Part shown: positions 56,294 to 63,066 of the stretch, piece by piece
Layout of the letters: every line of letters begins with the position of its first letter
Numbering within the stretch: position 1 is the first letter of the stretch
Assembly: GCF_001021555.1 (NCBI RefSeq)
Contig: NZ_LDCP01000002.1
Span: forward strand, 434,001-498,000
Reading direction: 5' to 3'
DNA: 64,000 nt
Source of the DNA: Aurantiacibacter marinus
Lineage (GTDB): Bacteria; Pseudomonadota; Alphaproteobacteria; Sphingomonadales; Sphingomonadaceae
The notes under the pieces: generated by a model
What the model was told of the DNA's origin: nothing
What the model saw: the letters and a program-made list of their open reading frames with translations, nothing else
Database searches by the model: none
Made by a program: the position numbers and the translations under genes

Positions 56294-57195
56294 CCGTCGA
56301 TGACTTCAAGGCGCGGCTGACGGTTCCGGCCATCGCCGCGCCAATGTTCCTCGTGTCAGGTCCCGACCTTGTGGTCGAGACTTGCAAGGCAGGCATGTGC
56401 GGCACTTTCCCTGCTCTCAACCAGCGCACCAGCGAGGGATTTGAGGACTGGCTGAAGGAAATCCAGGACCGGCTTGGCCCGGATGATGCGCCGTATGGTG
56501 TGAACCTGATTGTCCACCAGTCGAATCCGCGTGTGCAGGCCGATCTGGAATTGTGCGTAAAGTACAAGGTTCCGCTGATCATCACGTCGCTTGGCGCTGT
56601 GCCTGATCTGGTGAATGCAGTGCATTCCTACGGCGGTTTGGTATTCCACGATGTGATCAAGCGTCGCCATGCCGAAAAGGCCGTGGAAGCAGGCGTGGAC
56701 GGGATCATTGCAGTTGCAGCCGGTGCTGGCGGCCATGCAGGCACCTACAGCCCCTTCGCGCTCGTGTCCGAAATCCGCGATTTCTATGATGGCGCGATTA
56801 TCCTTTCAGGCAGCATGAGCCATGGCGGCCATATCTTGGCCGCAGAGGCGATGGGAGCTGACTTTGGCTATTTTGGCAGCCACTTTATCGCAGCTGCCGA
56901 AAGCATGGCGCCTGCCGGTCAGAAAGAAATGATGATTGGCGCGACCGCCAAGGATATCACTTATACCAACAAGGTGACCGGGGTGGGCGCAAACTTCCTC
57001 ACGCCCAGCCTTGACGCGGCAACCTTGCACGATGCTCCGGGCGAAATGTCTCTGAACGAAGAGGCAAAGGCGTGGAAGACGATCTGGTCAGCGGGCCACG
57101 GTGTCGGCGCGGTGCATGATGTGCGCCCGACACGCGAATTGTGCGAACAGCTGATTGCCGAATACCGCGCAGCAAAAGCGAAAATCTGCGGTTAA
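56290..57195 (+). CDS. NAD(P)H-dependent flavin oxidoreductase / nitronate monooxygenase family
   Basis: The 301-residue TIM-barrel protein has a TTG start overlapping the acyl-CoA dehydrogenase stop (TTGA). It has VPAIAAPMFLVSGPDLVVETCKAGMCG, YGVNLIVHQSNPRVQADL, VDGIIAVAAGAGGHAG and FGYFGSHFIAAAES. These fit the 2-nitropropane-dioxygenase/YrpB family and FMN binding. In this operon it may reduce or oxidise an acyl-derived intermediate; the true substrate is unknown. Thirty-three base pairs without a terminator separate it from the type III PKS gene. Confidence 0.85.
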   Translation: MTVDDFKARLTVPAIAAPMFLVSGPDLVVETCKAGMCGTFPALNQRTSEGFEDWLKEIQDRLGPDDAPYGVNLIVHQSNPRVQADLELCVKYKVPLIITSLGAVPDLVNAVHSYGGLVFHDVIKRRHAEKAVEAGVDGIIAVAAGAGGHAGTYSPFALVSEIRDFYDGAIILSGSMSHGGHILAAEAMGADFGYFGSHFIAAAESMAPAGQKEMMIGATAKDITYTNKVTGVGANFLTPSLDAATLHDAPGEMSLNEEAKAWKTIWSAGHGVGAVHDVRPTRELCEQLIAEYRAAKAKICG

Positions 57196-57228
57196 GCGGC
57201 ACTAAAGTGGCGGGCGCTCATTAAAGAT

Positions 57229-58296
57229 ATGATGAGTAGCAAGAAGCAACCAATTGTCCCGCGTATAAACGCTATCGTAACGGCCGTGCCGGAGTGCGAT
57301 GTTCATGCGCGCTATACCGATTGGGCGGAGCAACAATTGCCCGGGCGCAAGGCGGCAGTTTTCCGCCGGATGGAAGCGCGCGGCGGCATTGACCACCGTT
57401 TCTCAGTGCTTTCCGGCACCGATGCGGCGATGGATTTCGGCAGCTTTTACATGAGCGGTTCCCCGCCGGGGACGGCGCAGCGGATGCAGCGTTATGCAGA
57501 AGCCGCGCCGGATCTGGCGCTGAAGGCGATTGCGGGCCTGCCGTCCACCGACGGCGTGACGCATCTGGTGATTGCCAGTTGCACCGGCTTTATGGCCCCT
57601 GGCCTGGATCAGGTCATTGCCCGCCGTCTCGGACTTGCCACCAATGTGGAGCGTGTGAGCATTGGCTTCATGGGCTGTTATGCCGGAGTGACACTGCTGC
57701 GCACCGCTGCACATATCGTCCGCTCCCAGCCCAGTGCGCGGGTGCTGGCGGTTTCGGTCGAGCTTTGCACATTGCACTTGCAGGAAACTGACGACCTCGA
57801 AAGCCTGCTGGCGATGGGCCAGTTCGCCGATGGCGCGGCAGCAGTATTGGTCAGCGCGCAAAGCGAGGGGCTCGGCCTCGGGGAAGGTCTTTCCGCAACG
57901 CTTGAAGATAGCGAAGACTTGATCACCTGGACCGTCGGCGACACCGGCTTCGCCATGCACTTGTCCGGCGCTGTTCCAGGCAGGCTGGCAGAAGCGCTCG
58001 ATGATCCACAATTGCAGGCGACAATCGAAGGCGATCTGCGGCCAGAGGCATGGGCCATCCATCCTGGTGGGCGCTCCGTGCTAGATGCGGCTGAAAGGGG
58101 CCTGAAGTTGCCATCGGAGGCACTGAAATCCTCTCGCGCCGTGTTGAGCGAGTGCGGCAACATGTCATCCGCCACCGTGCTTTTCGTGCTTCAGCGATTG
58201 ATGGCAGCAAAGCCTGAGAATGGCATCGCGCTGGCCTTCGGGCCGGGTCTGGCGATGGAGGGCCTCCGTTTTGGGTGGGAGACCGGCAATGCTTGA
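57229..58296 (+). CDS. Type III polyketide synthase
   Basis: The chalcone-synthase-fold homodimer extends an acyl-CoA starter with malonyl-CoA without an acyl carrier protein, giving pyrones or resorcinols. The 355-residue protein has the triad Cys118 (VIASCTGFMAPGLD), His278 (AWAIHPGGRSVLD) and Asn311 (SECGNMSSATVL). The length fits bacterial type III PKSs. It is translationally coupled to the methyltransferase (overlap 8 bp) and co-directional with the beta-oxidation genes, which suggests a fatty acyl-CoA starter. The exact product cannot be read from the sequence. Confidence 0.93.
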   Translation: MMSSKKQPIVPRINAIVTAVPECDVHARYTDWAEQQLPGRKAAVFRRMEARGGIDHRFSVLSGTDAAMDFGSFYMSGSPPGTAQRMQRYAEAAPDLALKAIAGLPSTDGVTHLVIASCTGFMAPGLDQVIARRLGLATNVERVSIGFMGCYAGVTLLRTAAHIVRSQPSARVLAVSVELCTLHLQETDDLESLLAMGQFADGAAAVLVSAQSEGLGLGEGLSATLEDSEDLITWTVGDTGFAMHLSGAVPGRLAEALDDPQLQATIEGDLRPEAWAIHPGGRSVLDAAERGLKLPSEALKSSRAVLSECGNMSSATVLFVLQRLMAAKPENGIALAFGPGLAMEGLRFGWETGNA

Positions 58297-58975
58297 AGAA
58301 CGGCTCCAAACCGAAGAGCTGATGGACGATCCTTCGCTGCCGGAAGATATCTACCGCGAAGTTCTGGCAGATCTTTCCAAGGTCAATCGTGTCACCCTCG
58401 CCTATCGCCCCACACTGAAGTTCCTCGAGAATGCGCTTGCTGGCCGCAAGAGCTTCAAATTGCTCGATGTGGGTTTTGGCCAAGGCGACATGCTGCGCGA
58501 AATAGCCGACTGGGCCGAGGCCCGCGGCATCAAAGCGACGCTCGTCGGCGTAGACTTGAACCCTCGCAGCGAAGCCGCGGCCCGCCTTGCAACTCCTGCA
58601 GCAATGCCGATCACCTATCGCACCGGCGATTACGCTGATCTTATCGGCGATCGCTGGGATTTCGTGATATCCAGCCTTGTCGCCCATCATATGACGCGGG
58701 AGGAACTCGTGCTGTTCCTGCGCTTCATGGAGAGCGAGGCAAAAATTGGCTGGTTCATCAATGACCTGCACCGCCACGGGCTGAGCTATCTTGGTTATCC
58801 AGTCCTGGCAAAACTGGCGCGGTGGCATGAAATCGTGCGGCAGGATGGACAGACCTCCATCGCCCGGTCTTACCGGGCGGAGGAATGGCAGGCCATACTG
58901 GCCGAGGCCGGAGTCACCGGCGCCTGTATTGAACGCTTTTTCCCGTTTCGCCTGTGCGTATCTCAGACCCGTTAG
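58289..58975 (+). CDS. SAM-dependent methyltransferase of the PKS cluster
   Basis: The 228-residue class I methyltransferase has SAM motif I FKLLDVGFGQGDML (about residues 57-70), the acidic VGVDLNPRS, and RWDFVISSLVAHHMT. A C-terminal SYRAEEWQAILAEAGV helix follows. The start at 58289 overlaps the PKS stop. In type III PKS clusters such as Streptomyces srsABC, the equivalent enzyme methylates the phenolic product, so the same role is inferred. Whether O- or C-methylation occurs is not clear from sequence. Confidence 0.88.
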   Translation: MLEERLQTEELMDDPSLPEDIYREVLADLSKVNRVTLAYRPTLKFLENALAGRKSFKLLDVGFGQGDMLREIADWAEARGIKATLVGVDLNPRSEAAARLATPAAMPITYRTGDYADLIGDRWDFVISSLVAHHMTREELVLFLRFMESEAKIGWFINDLHRHGLSYLGYPVLAKLARWHEIVRQDGQTSIARSYRAEEWQAILAEAGVTGACIERFFPFRLCVSQTR

Positions 58976-60063
58976 ACCTCCCCATCGTCGGCGCTGGACC
59001 GGCGGGCTGCGCAGTGGCGATTGCACTGGCGCGCCGCGATGCCCATCCGCTGCTGATCGACCGGGACGAAGAGGTCGGCGATCCCCTGTGCGGAGGGTTT
59101 CTTAGCTGGCGCACCGCAGAGCAATTGCATTCCCTCGGCATCGACCCCGCCGCTCTTGGGGCGCATCGTGTCACGAAGCTGCGCTTGTTCGATGGAACGC
59201 GCAAAGCCGAACTTGATCTACCCCACGCAGCATGGGGCCTGTCGCGCCATGCAATGGACACGGCATTACGCGCCAAAGCATTGGCAGTAGGCGCGCGGAT
59301 TGCGTTCGACACTATCCGCGAAGTCCGGCCCGGCGTCGTCATAGGCAAGTCGCATGAGTGGAAATCACGCGACATCTTCCTCGCGAGCGGCAAGCATGAC
59401 ATTCGTGGCCGATCCCGCCCGCGCAAACGCAAGGACACGGCTTTGGGCCTGCGGTTACGCTTGCCACCGACGCCCGACCGGCAACGCTTGCTCGAAAAGG
59501 CGATTGAATTGCACCTATTCCCGGGCGGATATGCGGGCATAGTGCTGCAGGAAGGCGGTTCGGCGAATATCTGTCTGGCCTTACGCAAAAGCGCACTTCG
59601 CGATGCGAGCAGCTCTCCGGAAACACTGTTTGGGCAAGTCGCCGACAGCAACCCTGCCTTTGCCGCACGACTGGGAAGCGATTGGCGCGAAGGCCGCTTC
59701 GATACAATCGGCGCAGTTCCATACGGTTATATCGCCGACAGGACAGAAGCGGGCATCTGGCGGCTAGGCGATCAAGCCGCCGTCATTCCCTCGCTTGCAG
59801 GGGAGGGAATTTCCATCGCGCTGGCGAGCGGCATTATGGCTGCCGACTATTGGCACGAAGCAGCCGGTTCCTCGAGCTTCCAGTACGACTTCGCGCGAAA
59901 GGCCCGCAAACCGGTTCGCCTCGCCTCTGTGGCATGGCATCTGGCTGAAACTCGGATCGGCGCGCGCGCTGCCATTGCACTGGCCAGTCTTGCCCCCTCT
60001 TTAATTGCCAGTTTTGCCGACCTTGCGCGTATTGAAGCTGCGCCCTCCCTTGCGCCGCGATAA
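58954..60063 (+). CDS. FAD-dependent oxidoreductase of the PKS cluster
   Basis: The 369-residue flavoprotein starts at a GTG overlapping the methyltransferase by 22 bp. It has the dinucleotide motif PIVGAGPAGCAVAIALA (residues 10-26) and the second FAD region WRLGDQAAVIPSLAGEGISIALASG. The fold is that of p-hydroxybenzoate hydroxylase/geranylgeranyl-reductase-type enzymes. In srsC-type clusters this enzyme hydroxylates the phenol to a hydroquinone, so a similar role is likely; a reductase role is the main alternative. Confidence 0.87.
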   Translation: MRISDPLDLPIVGAGPAGCAVAIALARRDAHPLLIDRDEEVGDPLCGGFLSWRTAEQLHSLGIDPAALGAHRVTKLRLFDGTRKAELDLPHAAWGLSRHAMDTALRAKALAVGARIAFDTIREVRPGVVIGKSHEWKSRDIFLASGKHDIRGRSRPRKRKDTALGLRLRLPPTPDRQRLLEKAIELHLFPGGYAGIVLQEGGSANICLALRKSALRDASSSPETLFGQVADSNPAFAARLGSDWREGRFDTIGAVPYGYIADRTEAGIWRLGDQAAVIPSLAGEGISIALASGIMAADYWHEAAGSSSFQYDFARKARKPVRLASVAWHLAETRIGARAAIALASLAPSLIASFADLARIEAAPSLAPR

Positions 60064-60122
60064 GGCTCTGCTAGGACGCGGCCAAACCGCATCACTTCAG
60101 ACACAAAACAGGTAGGCCCAAC

Positions 60123-61352
60123 ATGGCGAAAATTCAGGTCAAGAACCCGGTCGTTGAACTCGACGGCGACGAAATGACAAAAATCATCTGGCAGTGGATC
60201 CGCGAACGGCTGATCCTGCCTTATCTCGATGTCGACCTGAAGTATTACGATCTTTCCATTGAGAAGCGTGACGAGACGGACGATCAGATCACCATCGACG
60301 CCGCAAATGCCATCAAGGAACACGGTGTTGGCGTGAAATGCGCCACCATTACTCCTGATGAAGCCCGCGTTGAAGAATTCGGCCTCAAGCAGATGTGGCG
60401 TTCGCCCAACGGCACGATCCGTAACATCCTTGGCGGCGTCGTATTCCGTGAGCCGATCGTGATCGACAATGTGCCGCGCCTTGTGCCCGGCTGGACCGAT
60501 CCCATCGTTGTGGGCCGCCACGCCTTTGGTGACCAGTACCGCGCCACCGACACGCTGATCCCGGGCGCAGGCAAGCTGCGCCTGGTATTCGAAGGCGCAG
60601 ACGGCAAGAATATCGACCTCGACGTGTTCGAATTCGAACAGCCCGGCGTTGCGATGGCGATGTATAATCTGGACGAGAGCATCCGTGATTTTGCTCGCGC
60701 CAGCTTCAACTATGGCCTCGACCGTGGCTGGCCGGTTTATCTCTCCACGAAGAACACCATCCTCAAGAAGTATGATGGGCGCTTCAAAGACCTGTTCCAG
60801 GAAATCTTCGACACCGAAGGCTTCAAGGAAAAGTTCGAAGAAGCCAACATCACTTACGAACACCGCCTGATCGACGACATGGTCGCAGCCGCTCTCAAGT
60901 GGAGCGGCAAGTTCGTATGGGCCTGCAAGAACTATGATGGTGACGTGCAGTCCGACATCGTGGCTCAGGGCTTCGGCTCGCTCGGACTGATGACTTCGGT
61001 TCTGATGACGCCAGATGGCAACACTGTGGAAGCAGAAGCGGCGCACGGCACCGTGACCCGCCACTTCCGCCAGCATGAGCAGGGCAAGGCGACTTCCACC
61101 AACCCCATCGCCAGCATCTTCGCATGGACGCGCGGCCTGATGTACCGTGGTCGCTTCGACAACACGCCCGACGTGGTAGCTTTTGCCGAAACGCTGGAGC
61201 GGGTCTGCATCGAGTGCGTTGAACAGGGCAAGATGACCAAGGATCTCGCGCTTCTTATCGGCCCGAGCCAGAGTTGGATGACCACCGAGCAGTTCTTCGA
61301 AGCCATCGTTGAAGGCCTTGAAGTGGAAATGAAGAAGCAGGGTCTGGCTTGA
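60123..61352 (+). CDS. icd: NADP-dependent isocitrate dehydrogenase
   Basis: Icd oxidatively decarboxylates isocitrate to 2-oxoglutarate in the TCA cycle. The 409-residue protein belongs to the homodimeric, eukaryote-like NADP form. It begins [20 protein letters not shown] and has [63 protein letters not shown] and [13 protein letters not shown]. The substrate Ser/Asn/Arg residues in SPNGTIRN are present. AGGTAGG precedes the ATG. Confidence 0.96.
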
Positions 61353-61461: not shown

Positions 61462-63066
61462 ATGAGCAGCAAAGCCCGCCTTGAAGTCCGTCAGGCCGAA
61501 ACTGGCGATATTCGCCGCATCGCCGCGCTGGCGAAGCGCGTCTATGATGATTTTGCGCCCTACACACAGGGTGAAATCCGCGGGCAACTGAACAACTATT
61601 CGGCGGGCTGTTTTGTTGCCATTCTGGATGACAAGCTCGTCGGCTATTGCGCCACCATGCGCATTGGCGGAGATAAGGCGCTGCGTCCGCATACGTGGGA
61701 TGAAATCACCGGCAATGGCTACGGCAGCCGGCATGATCCCAATGGCGATTGGCTGTACGGATATGAAATGGTCGTCGATCCCAAAGTGCGCGGCACCCGC
61801 ATTGGTCGGCGGCTGTATGAAGAGCGGCGCTCTTTGGCCGAACAGCTGGAACTGAAAGGCATCGCCTTTGGCGGGCGCATGCCAAACCTCAAGAAATCAT
61901 GGCGCAGGGTAGATAGCCCTGCCGATTATCTTGAAAAAGTCATCGCGGGCAAGATCCATGACCCTGTCCTGCGTTTTCAGCTGGCCAATGGCTTTGAACC
62001 AATAGGCGTGCTGGCCAAGTATCTGCCTGAAGACCGGAATAGCCGGGGCAACGCAGTCCACATGGTCTGGCGCAATCCCTGGGTCGATCAGGAAGCGAGC
62101 ACGCAGGCGCGTGTTCCACGCGGCGTGGAAAACGTGCGCGTCGCCACCTGTCAGTTGCAGGCACGGGCGGTGAAGGACTTTGACGAGTTTATCGGACAAA
62201 TCCGCTATTTCGTCGATGTTGCAGCGGATTACGAAGCAGATTTTATTCTGTTTCCCGAATTGTTCACGCTGATGCTCCTCAGCGCTGAAGCGGAAGAGCT
62301 TTCGCCATTGGAAAGCATTGAACGCCTGTCCGAATACACGCCGCGCATCCGCGAAGCGCTGAGCGAGATGGCGCTCAAATGCAATATCAACATTATCGGC
62401 GGCTCCCACCCGACGCGGATGGAAGACGGCGACATTCACAATGTTGCGATGGTGTGCCTGCGCGATGGATCAATCCACGAGCAGGAGAAGATCCATCCGA
62501 CGCCTAACGAGGCATATTGGTGGAACATTCGCGGCGGTGATGCTGTGGATGTAATCCAGACAGACTGCGGCCCCATCGGCGTGCTGATATGTTACGATTC
62601 GGAATTTCCGGAACTCGCACGCAGACTGGCCGATGAAGGCGCGCGGATCATCTTCGTGCCTTTCTGCACCGATAGCCGCCAAGGCTATATGCGCGTGCGT
62701 TACTGCTCCGCGGCCCGGGCGATTGAAAACCAGTGTTATGTGGTGATGAGCGGCAATGTCGGCAATTTGCCCAATGTCGCCAACATGGACATCCAATATG
62801 CGCAGAGCTGCATCCTGACGCCTTGCGACTTCCCCTTTGCACGTGACGGGATTGCGGCCGAAGCGACAGAGAATGTCGAAACGCTGACTATCAGTGATGT
62901 GAATTTGGCTGATCTTGCATGGGCCAGAGCTGAGGGTACCGTGCGAAATCTGGCTGACCGGCGTTTCGATCTCTACCGGATCGAGTGGGAACACCGGGAA
63001 GGTGCAACACAGGCCGAACCCAGCGGCCCGCCACCAACGCGCCAGCATGGACCGGGTGGCGGCTAG
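61462..63066 (+). CDS. GNAT acetyltransferase-nitrilase fusion protein
   Basis: The 534-residue fusion has an N-terminal GNAT domain (VRQAETGDIRRIAALAKRVYDD, YGYEMVVDPKVRGTRIGRRLYEERR with the acetyl-CoA loop). The nitrilase-superfamily domain starts near residue 220. It has the triad Glu in ILFPELFTL, Lys in QEKIHPTPNEAYWW and Cys in GVLICYDSEFPEL. This fusion is a known nitrilase branch; the nitrilase half probably acts on an amide or carbamoyl compound. A coupled acetylation-hydrolysis role is a guess. Confidence 0.9.
   Translation: MSSKARLEVRQAETGDIRRIAALAKRVYDDFAPYTQGEIRGQLNNYSAGCFVAILDDKLVGYCATMRIGGDKALRPHTWDEITGNGYGSRHDPNGDWLYGYEMVVDPKVRGTRIGRRLYEERRSLAEQLELKGIAFGGRMPNLKKSWRRVDSPADYLEKVIAGKIHDPVLRFQLANGFEPIGVLAKYLPEDRNSRGNAVHMVWRNPWVDQEASTQARVPRGVENVRVATCQLQARAVKDFDEFIGQIRYFVDVAADYEADFILFPELFTLMLLSAEAEELSPLESIERLSEYTPRIREALSEMALKCNINIIGGSHPTRMEDGDIHNVAMVCLRDGSIHEQEKIHPTPNEAYWWNIRGGDAVDVIQTDCGPIGVLICYDSEFPELARRLADEGARIIFVPFCTDSRQGYMRVRYCSAARAIENQCYVVMSGNVGNLPNVANMDIQYAQSCILTPCDFPFARDGIAAEATENVETLTISDVNLADLAWARAEGTVRNLADRRFDLYRIEWEHREGATQAEPSGPPPTRQHGPGGG

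Follow-up and report, generated by a model that had tools for sequence, protein, structure and literature searches.

A probable hid-type phenolic-lipid cassette with a promoter-like spacer footprint behind beta-oxidation genes in Aurantiacibacter marinus

Introduction

The 64,000-nt stretch of Aurantiacibacter marinus analyzed here as a whole (the window; contig NZ_LDCP01000002.1, positions 434,001 to 498,000) carries genes for a type III polyketide synthase (PKS), a class I S-adenosylmethionine (SAM) methyltransferase (MT) and a flavin adenine dinucleotide (FAD) oxidoreductase directly behind a run of beta-oxidation (fad) genes. What lipid does this cassette make, and is it part of the beta-oxidation operon, as a preliminary description of the sequence proposed, or a unit under its own control? 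The reading that we consider the most probable is a hid-type phenolic-lipid cassette yielding a methylated alkylresorcinol that would be oxidized towards a hydroquinone or quinone. The gene set itself is of a known and widespread kind; new here are a corrected active site and neighboring gene, a rule separating class I MT partners from isoprenylcysteine carboxyl methyltransferase (ICMT) partners, the natural uncoupling of fad genes and cassette, and a footprint in the spacer ahead of the PKS gene.

Gene content and predicted pathway

The cassette consists of three complete open reading frames (ORFs) on the same (+) strand (Table 1), and this combination of one PKS, one methyltransferase and one FAD oxidoreductase in a single operon-like block is the gene content of the hid type. 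The PKS and MT genes overlap by 8 nt, because the MT gene starts at an ATG (58289) that lies within the end of the PKS gene, and the MT and FAD genes by 22 nt if the FAD start is taken as GTG; the three overlapping genes of the preliminary description are thus confirmed by ORFs, coordinates and Pfam classes. For the relatives, start codons were assigned by a script whose rule favors the start used in the window, and their gaps and upstream distances are approximate. With these starts, the PKS–MT gap runs from −11 to +5 in 78/78 relatives, 70 of them overlapping, and MT and FAD genes overlap in 74/74, by 22 nt in 48, once three rows with a plainly misset FAD start are dropped. The three genes probably form one tightly packed, translationally coupled unit, and the genome holds a single type III PKS match.

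Pfam places chalcone/stilbene synthase N and C domains on the PKS at 79.5 and 74.7 bits (cut-off 27), and Cys150, His278 and Asn311 are invariant in all 26 aligned type III PKSs, the domains and the triad together identifying the enzyme as a type III PKS. The triad had earlier been given as Cys118/His278/Asn311, of which the histidine and asparagine are right and the cysteine is wrong: Cys118 is that of "SCTGF", and the nucleophile is Cys150 in "GFMGCYAG", which aligns with the NFMGC cysteine of PKS18 and 7cb3. DpgA was tried as an identity and rejected (97.3 bits against a cut-off of 425). The MT carries Methyltransf_25/11 domains; the Pfam search gave these class I domains and no ICMT match (PF04140/PF04191), and the protein reaches 138.3 bits against PRK06202, whose cut-off is 243. 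The FAD protein has NAD_binding_8/FAD_binding_3 domains.

From these assignments, the PKS would load a long-chain acyl thioester on Cys150, add three malonyl units and close an alkylresorcinol ring, which the MT would then methylate on carbon or oxygen. The FAD enzyme would oxidize the ring, most likely by hydroxylation, towards a methylated alkylhydroquinone or alkylbenzoquinone, and the end product would be expected to sit in the membrane.

Two clades of type III PKS with different partners

A type III PKS match was found in 96/149 genomes of the family, 80 of them at ≥50% identity (two being fragments) and 16 at 28–41%, and in 87/385 genomes of a class-wide sample. The best 30 of these 87 became loci, 28 of them new and most reaching only 1.5 kb to each side; partner genes were read by tblastn (E 1e-4) in the 28 and in three low-identity family loci. 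In a tree of 57 rows (SrsA not among them), 21 rows fall on one side of a 100/100 branch as clade B, with the window outside. All 20 clade B loci hold an ICMT-like gene and none a match to the class I MT or the window's FAD gene; the ICMT of Nitrobacter (L196) was confirmed by Pfam at 93.7 bits. Among the 11 class-level loci of clade A, the window's side, the class I MT is present in 9, the FAD gene in 10 and an ICMT in none. This partner rule, class I MT versus ICMT, lets others sort alphaproteobacterial type III PKS clusters.

Conservation and uncoupling from the fad genes

Synteny was counted in 80 named relatives and also in loci from genomes of the window's genus. The MT gene was found in 79/80 named relatives (not L123) and the FAD gene in 79/80 (not L053, at a contig end); because both stand beside the PKS in 78/80, the gene set is no chance neighborhood. 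We found no fourth conserved cassette gene: starting from 16 seed loci and leaving aside antisense ORFs inside the cassette, the best-kept neighbor was an icd-like gene (30/80) and the next reached 22/80. This gene, which we take from its sequence to be isocitrate-dehydrogenase-like, lies downstream of the cassette in 31/80 named relatives, 14 of them without preceding fad genes.

Fad genes ending in a nitronate-monooxygenase-family gene (NMO) precede the cassette in 18/80 named relatives, those closest to the window, and also in L033, a locus from a genome of another, neighboring genus of the family. Within the window's genus, the fad operon on one side and icd on the other usually flank the block. 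In this genus the NMO follows the acyl-CoA dehydrogenase in 24/24 loci read and is itself followed by the PKS in 16, by icd in 3 and by neither within reach in 5; the PKS is present in 32/40 genomes, with the NMO directly upstream in 26/30 loci read. Two genomes (G163 and G166) have fad–NMO–icd with no type III PKS match. In a third (G165) the fad–NMO–icd locus is likewise empty and a PKS of only 58% identity lies on another contig (contig 4, 204629–205666), an arrangement that would fit replacement or relocation.

Each of the two, fad operon and cassette, is thus retained in places where the other is missing. Several relatives have the block next to icd with no fad genes, which makes the fad operon a local neighbor, whatever order of events may have led there. 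The cassette stays together while its neighbors change, and fusion with fad as a conserved design is rejected on synteny. Starter supply by the fad genes is plausible and is not needed, because most named relatives lack that neighborhood.

A promoter-like footprint in the spacer

After removal of exact duplicates, 45 loci gave 27 distinct NMO–PKS spacers, one of them from L033. The pattern GGCAC-N16-CGTT is exact in 19/27 and present at ≥8/9 in 21/27, whereas in 300 rounds of mononucleotide shuffling, applied to each spacer, no exact copy arose and never more than 1 at 8/9. Across the 23 rows at ≥7/9, the element columns are 96–100% conserved and the linker 35–70%, a contrast partly built in because those rows were chosen by the element. 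No such element was found in the three NMO–icd spacers. The exact form also stands ahead of the PKS at L043, L087, L093 and L094, loci without a fad operon there (L043 and L087 retain a distant 25% NMO-family match), and a looser form is found in 21/98 loci, 15 with an NMO, against a background of 1.35%. The 62 named loci without an NMO are related, so their counts are not independent; 34 of them have CGTT within −60 to +15, against a mean of 13.2 and a maximum of 21 in 300 controls, and 16 have a near match to GGAAC/GGCAC at 16–17 bp ahead of CGTT, against a mean of 2.78 and a maximum of 7 in 200 controls.

The cassette therefore probably has its own extracytoplasmic function (ECF)-sigma-type promoter in the spacer, as judged from this comparison, and the preliminary view that it has no separate promoter is not borne out. 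A promoter and a terminator of its own in the spacer would have spoken against joint transcription with the fad genes; the footprint supplies a predicted promoter, and neither a sigma-70-like site nor a same-strand terminator-like site was found in 56300–60300. This promoter would drive the cassette, perhaps with read-through from fad, which is possible. The footprint gives direct access to the question of when the lipid would be produced.

The EcfG stress promoters of sphingomonads read GGAAC-N16-CGTT, with CATT and TGTT among the other −10 boxes in use (PMC7083833; compare PMC6599016). The footprint shares their N16 spacing and −10 box, and the CATT of the window is among the −10 boxes tested there. 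An EcfG-dependent promoter would be expected to read GGAAC-N16/17-CGTT; the window has GGCAC-N16-CATT. The genome search gave four ECF-sized sigma genes, and GGCAC-N16-CGTT is absent from the 330 nt read upstream of each. One of them, on contig 1 at ~923 kb (L318, G000, 211 aa), presumably EcfG-like from its sequence, has a canonical GGAAC-N16-CGTT starting 288 nt upstream. Because the AAC triplet is CAC here and the ECF genes lack the GGCAC form within those 330 nt, we call the footprint ECF-type promoter-like and assign no sigma factor to it.

A regulon defined by the pattern is not supported, as it is not enriched genome-wide (22 sites versus 52 for the reversed control). Single occurrences were recorded in the same genome on contig 3: one 8 nt before a photolyase-related gene (PF04244; L253, ~198.5 kb) and one 45 nt before a redoxin-family gene (PF08534; L254, ~390.6 kb). 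Before the photolyase-related gene the pattern is exact in 5/27 genus loci and ≥8/9 in 8/27, with L275 and L278 reading GGAAC-N17-CATT. Before a GSDH gene it is exact in 8/30 loci and ≥8/9 in 20/30, a case that is ambiguous because the linker is conserved there.

Alternative readings

An alkylpyrone synthase of the PKS18 kind, with MT and FAD enzyme decorating a pyrone, would fit the best matches of the PKS among solved sequences, which are 7cb3 and PKS18 at 148 bits each, the latter a pyrone synthase. Trp234 aligns, via the Nitrobacter enzyme, with a Trp of PKS11 at a position where PKS18 has none. This Trp is tied to resorcinol formation in one paper (PMC5916927), yet PKS11 itself bears the name of a pyrone synthase in the PDB and is classed with the pyrone makers elsewhere (PMC8086630, PMC10896814), and CylI lacks the Trp although it is a resorcinol maker (PMC8086630). 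Trp234 therefore offers a weak argument for resorcinol formation, and its presence in PKS11 slightly lowers the weight that we give to the alkylresorcinol reading and slightly raises that of the pyrone. Stronger ground, by analogy, is given by the planctomycete experiments, in which operons with this gene content produced alkylresorcinols (PMC10896814), and we regard the pyrone as unlikely. The third gene may instead encode a geranylgeranyl-reductase-like saturase, so that the pathway would end in a reduced side chain or ring and not in a quinone. The geranylgeranyl-reductase superfamily (TIGR02032) is the top NCBIfam match for the FAD proteins of the window (84.1 bits, cut-off 158.8), Roseomonas, Paludisphaera and Psychrobacter. 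All four, however, fall below the cut-off, and the QhpG monooxygenase comes second for the window (66.4 bits, cut-off 240) and Roseomonas and third for the other two. In Deinococcus the slot is filled by an aromatic-hydroxylase-like protein (PF01494, 168.6 bits), also below the NCBIfam cut-offs, which hints at hydroxylation. Because the window's protein passes generic Pfam cut-offs only, the choice between hydroxylase and reductase is not settled; we think a saturase rather improbable, a little less so than the pyrone. The FAD step is the least sure part of the pathway, because the MT and FAD enzyme of Gimesia maris, added to its PKS, gave one extra methylation, probably at a carbon, and by the authors' own account the role of the FAD enzyme remains to be found (PMC10896814). 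Several further points weigh against a methylated alkylresorcinol of hid type. The sequence link to that type runs through Paludisphaera, and the deep branch uniting it with the window's clade is weak (85/46); a long Paenibacillus row may be falsely drawn to clade B. Within clade A, L165 has no recognized partner, its PKS being followed by unassigned ORFs, and L167 has the FAD gene only.

On the question of control, the preliminary description made the cassette a functional extension of the beta-oxidation operon, with one transcript that both makes and consumes acyl-CoA starters. A short spacer (25–39 bp in 18/18 named fad-preceded loci, with script-set starts), the frequency of the upstream NMO in the genus, the single full-length FadB of the genome and the lack of a sigma-70 or same-strand terminator-like site in the region searched all fit such a design, and a single transcript with fad is possible. 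As a conserved arrangement it fails: 62/80 named relatives have the PKS without upstream fad genes, G163, G166 and G165 are uncoupled, and the spacer holds a conserved promoter-like footprint. Beta-oxidation would moreover destroy PKS starters, so that shared induction is not obviously useful, and we hold this extension to be improbable. The footprint may itself reflect shared ancestry or a post-transcriptional element, since the comparison covers 27 short spacers that are homologous and related, with column counts taken on rows picked for matching it. Against this, exact copies vary widely in their 16-bp linker, the exact form precedes the PKS at four loci without a fad operon, and near matches at the 16/17 spacing exceed every control among the 62 loci without an NMO; a non-promoter origin is a minority view that we keep in mind. 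The promoter reading has to absorb other discrepancies: six of the 27 spacers (L199, L200, L201, L212, L215 and L219) score ≤7/9, the window's own −10 is CATT and not CGTT, its match taken alone is not significant (2 found versus 1.68 expected for the CRTT form), the pattern lacks genome-wide enrichment, and GGCAC misses the AAC triplet, which is nearly invariant in EcfG promoters, with one mismatch in only 3/79 of those of Sphingopyxis (PMC7083833). A bolder proposal joins product and control: an EcfG-like promoter (GGCAC −35) at the fad tail might, in photo-oxidative or general stress, redirect long-chain acyl-CoA from breakdown into a membrane lipid with a protective role, a methylated alkylquinone. 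Such a stress-switched diversion would be shared by many sphingomonads, where the literature searched gave no description of it, and we offer it as a speculation that is probably wrong in at least some part.

Flanking genes

The preliminary description placed a thiolase, hydratase/dehydrogenase and acyl-CoA dehydrogenase run 33 bp ahead of the cassette. The distance and the fad genes are right; the adjoining gene is the NMO, omitted there, and not the acyl-CoA dehydrogenase. Beyond icd, a single ORF (61462–63066, +) fuses a GNAT acetyltransferase domain to a carbon–nitrogen hydrolase domain.

Table 1. Features of the cassette and its surroundings in the window
Feature	Start	End	Strand	Basis
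Long-chain acyl-CoA ligase, divergent from fad run	49124	50839	-	Pfam/NCBIfam
Thiolase (fad run)	51019	52152	+	Pfam/NCBIfam
FadB-type hydroxyacyl-CoA dehydrogenase/enoyl-CoA hydratase; only full-length copy found in genome	52149	54482	+	Pfam, genome search
Acyl-CoA dehydrogenase (fad run)	54503	56293	+	Pfam
NMO (PF03060), last of fad run	56290	57195	+	ORF, Pfam
Spacer, NMO stop to PKS start, 33 bp	57196	57228		coordinates
Promoter-like footprint GGCAC-N16-CATT, 8/9 to GGCAC-N16-CGTT, 6 nt before PKS ATG	57198	57222	+	spacer comparison
Type III PKS, 355 aa, Cys150/His278/Asn311, Trp234	57229	58296	+	Pfam, alignments
Class I SAM MT, 228 aa, PRK06202-like; ATG inside PKS end	58289	58975	+	Pfam/NCBIfam
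FAD oxidoreductase, 369 aa, GTG start; nearest geranylgeranyl-reductase superfamily	58954	60063	+	Pfam/NCBIfam
icd-like gene (presumed name), downstream of cassette	60123	61352	+	ORF

Comparison with known systems

The preliminary description assigned the cassette to the srsABC type. The srsABC operon of Streptomyces griseus likewise makes phenolic lipids with a type III PKS, a methyltransferase and an FAD enzyme, and the homologous gene sets support a pathway of this general kind well. SrsB, however, is described as an ICMT (PMC6669644), and ICMT partners belong to the other type III PKS clade, so the srs type goes with clade B by partner type. With a class I MT, no ICMT match and a PKS outside that clade, the cassette is not of srsABC type.

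Homologues of all three genes occur in plasmid records of Roseomonas, Microvirga, Psychrobacter, Paludisphaera and Paenibacillus, the last unannotated and read by tblastn; the Microvirga FAD gene is annotated short (229 aa), and the Psychrobacter PKS lies on the opposite strand from FAD and MT. Deinococcus and Microbacterium (L193 and L195) share PKS and MT but have a different third gene, to which the window's FAD protein gave no match; in Microbacterium the PKS match falls into two separate pieces. Closer to the window, genome mining has already reported type III PKS clusters in a clade with E. luteus, E. odishensis and E. zhengii (PMC9723273). The PKS is present at ≥50% identity in about half of the sampled family (80/149), and the open-access literature gave no named product for any sphingomonad copy, which also counts against the reading proposed here; if a phenolic or quinone lipid is made, a common component of the membrane would have been overlooked.

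The gene arrangement had been put forward as one without a named product, which is half right: Acetobacteraceae clusters of type III PKS, methyltransferase and FAD monooxygenase are in print, with their product given as unknown (PMC8776678). These have the same content as the window, and the Roseomonas locus (L190) also the same order, at 48, 45 and 34% identity, but no fad operon in front. In Planctomycetota, MT–FAD–PKS operons are reported at 58/96 type III PKS genes (PMC10896814). Their gene content is that of the window, and Paludisphaera (L192) is homologous in all three genes with a class I MT; the order differs, and the Paludisphaera identities are 37, 29 and 28%. The hidABC (hierridin) clusters of picocyanobacteria, with reported orders hidA-B-C and hidC-A-B (PMC8086630), differ in host and presumably in product, and are likened to the window by their described gene content and not by sequence, a further reservation about the hid-type reading; they hold, as the window does, one type III PKS, one methyltransferase and one oxidoreductase, and hidC-A-B is the order of the window.

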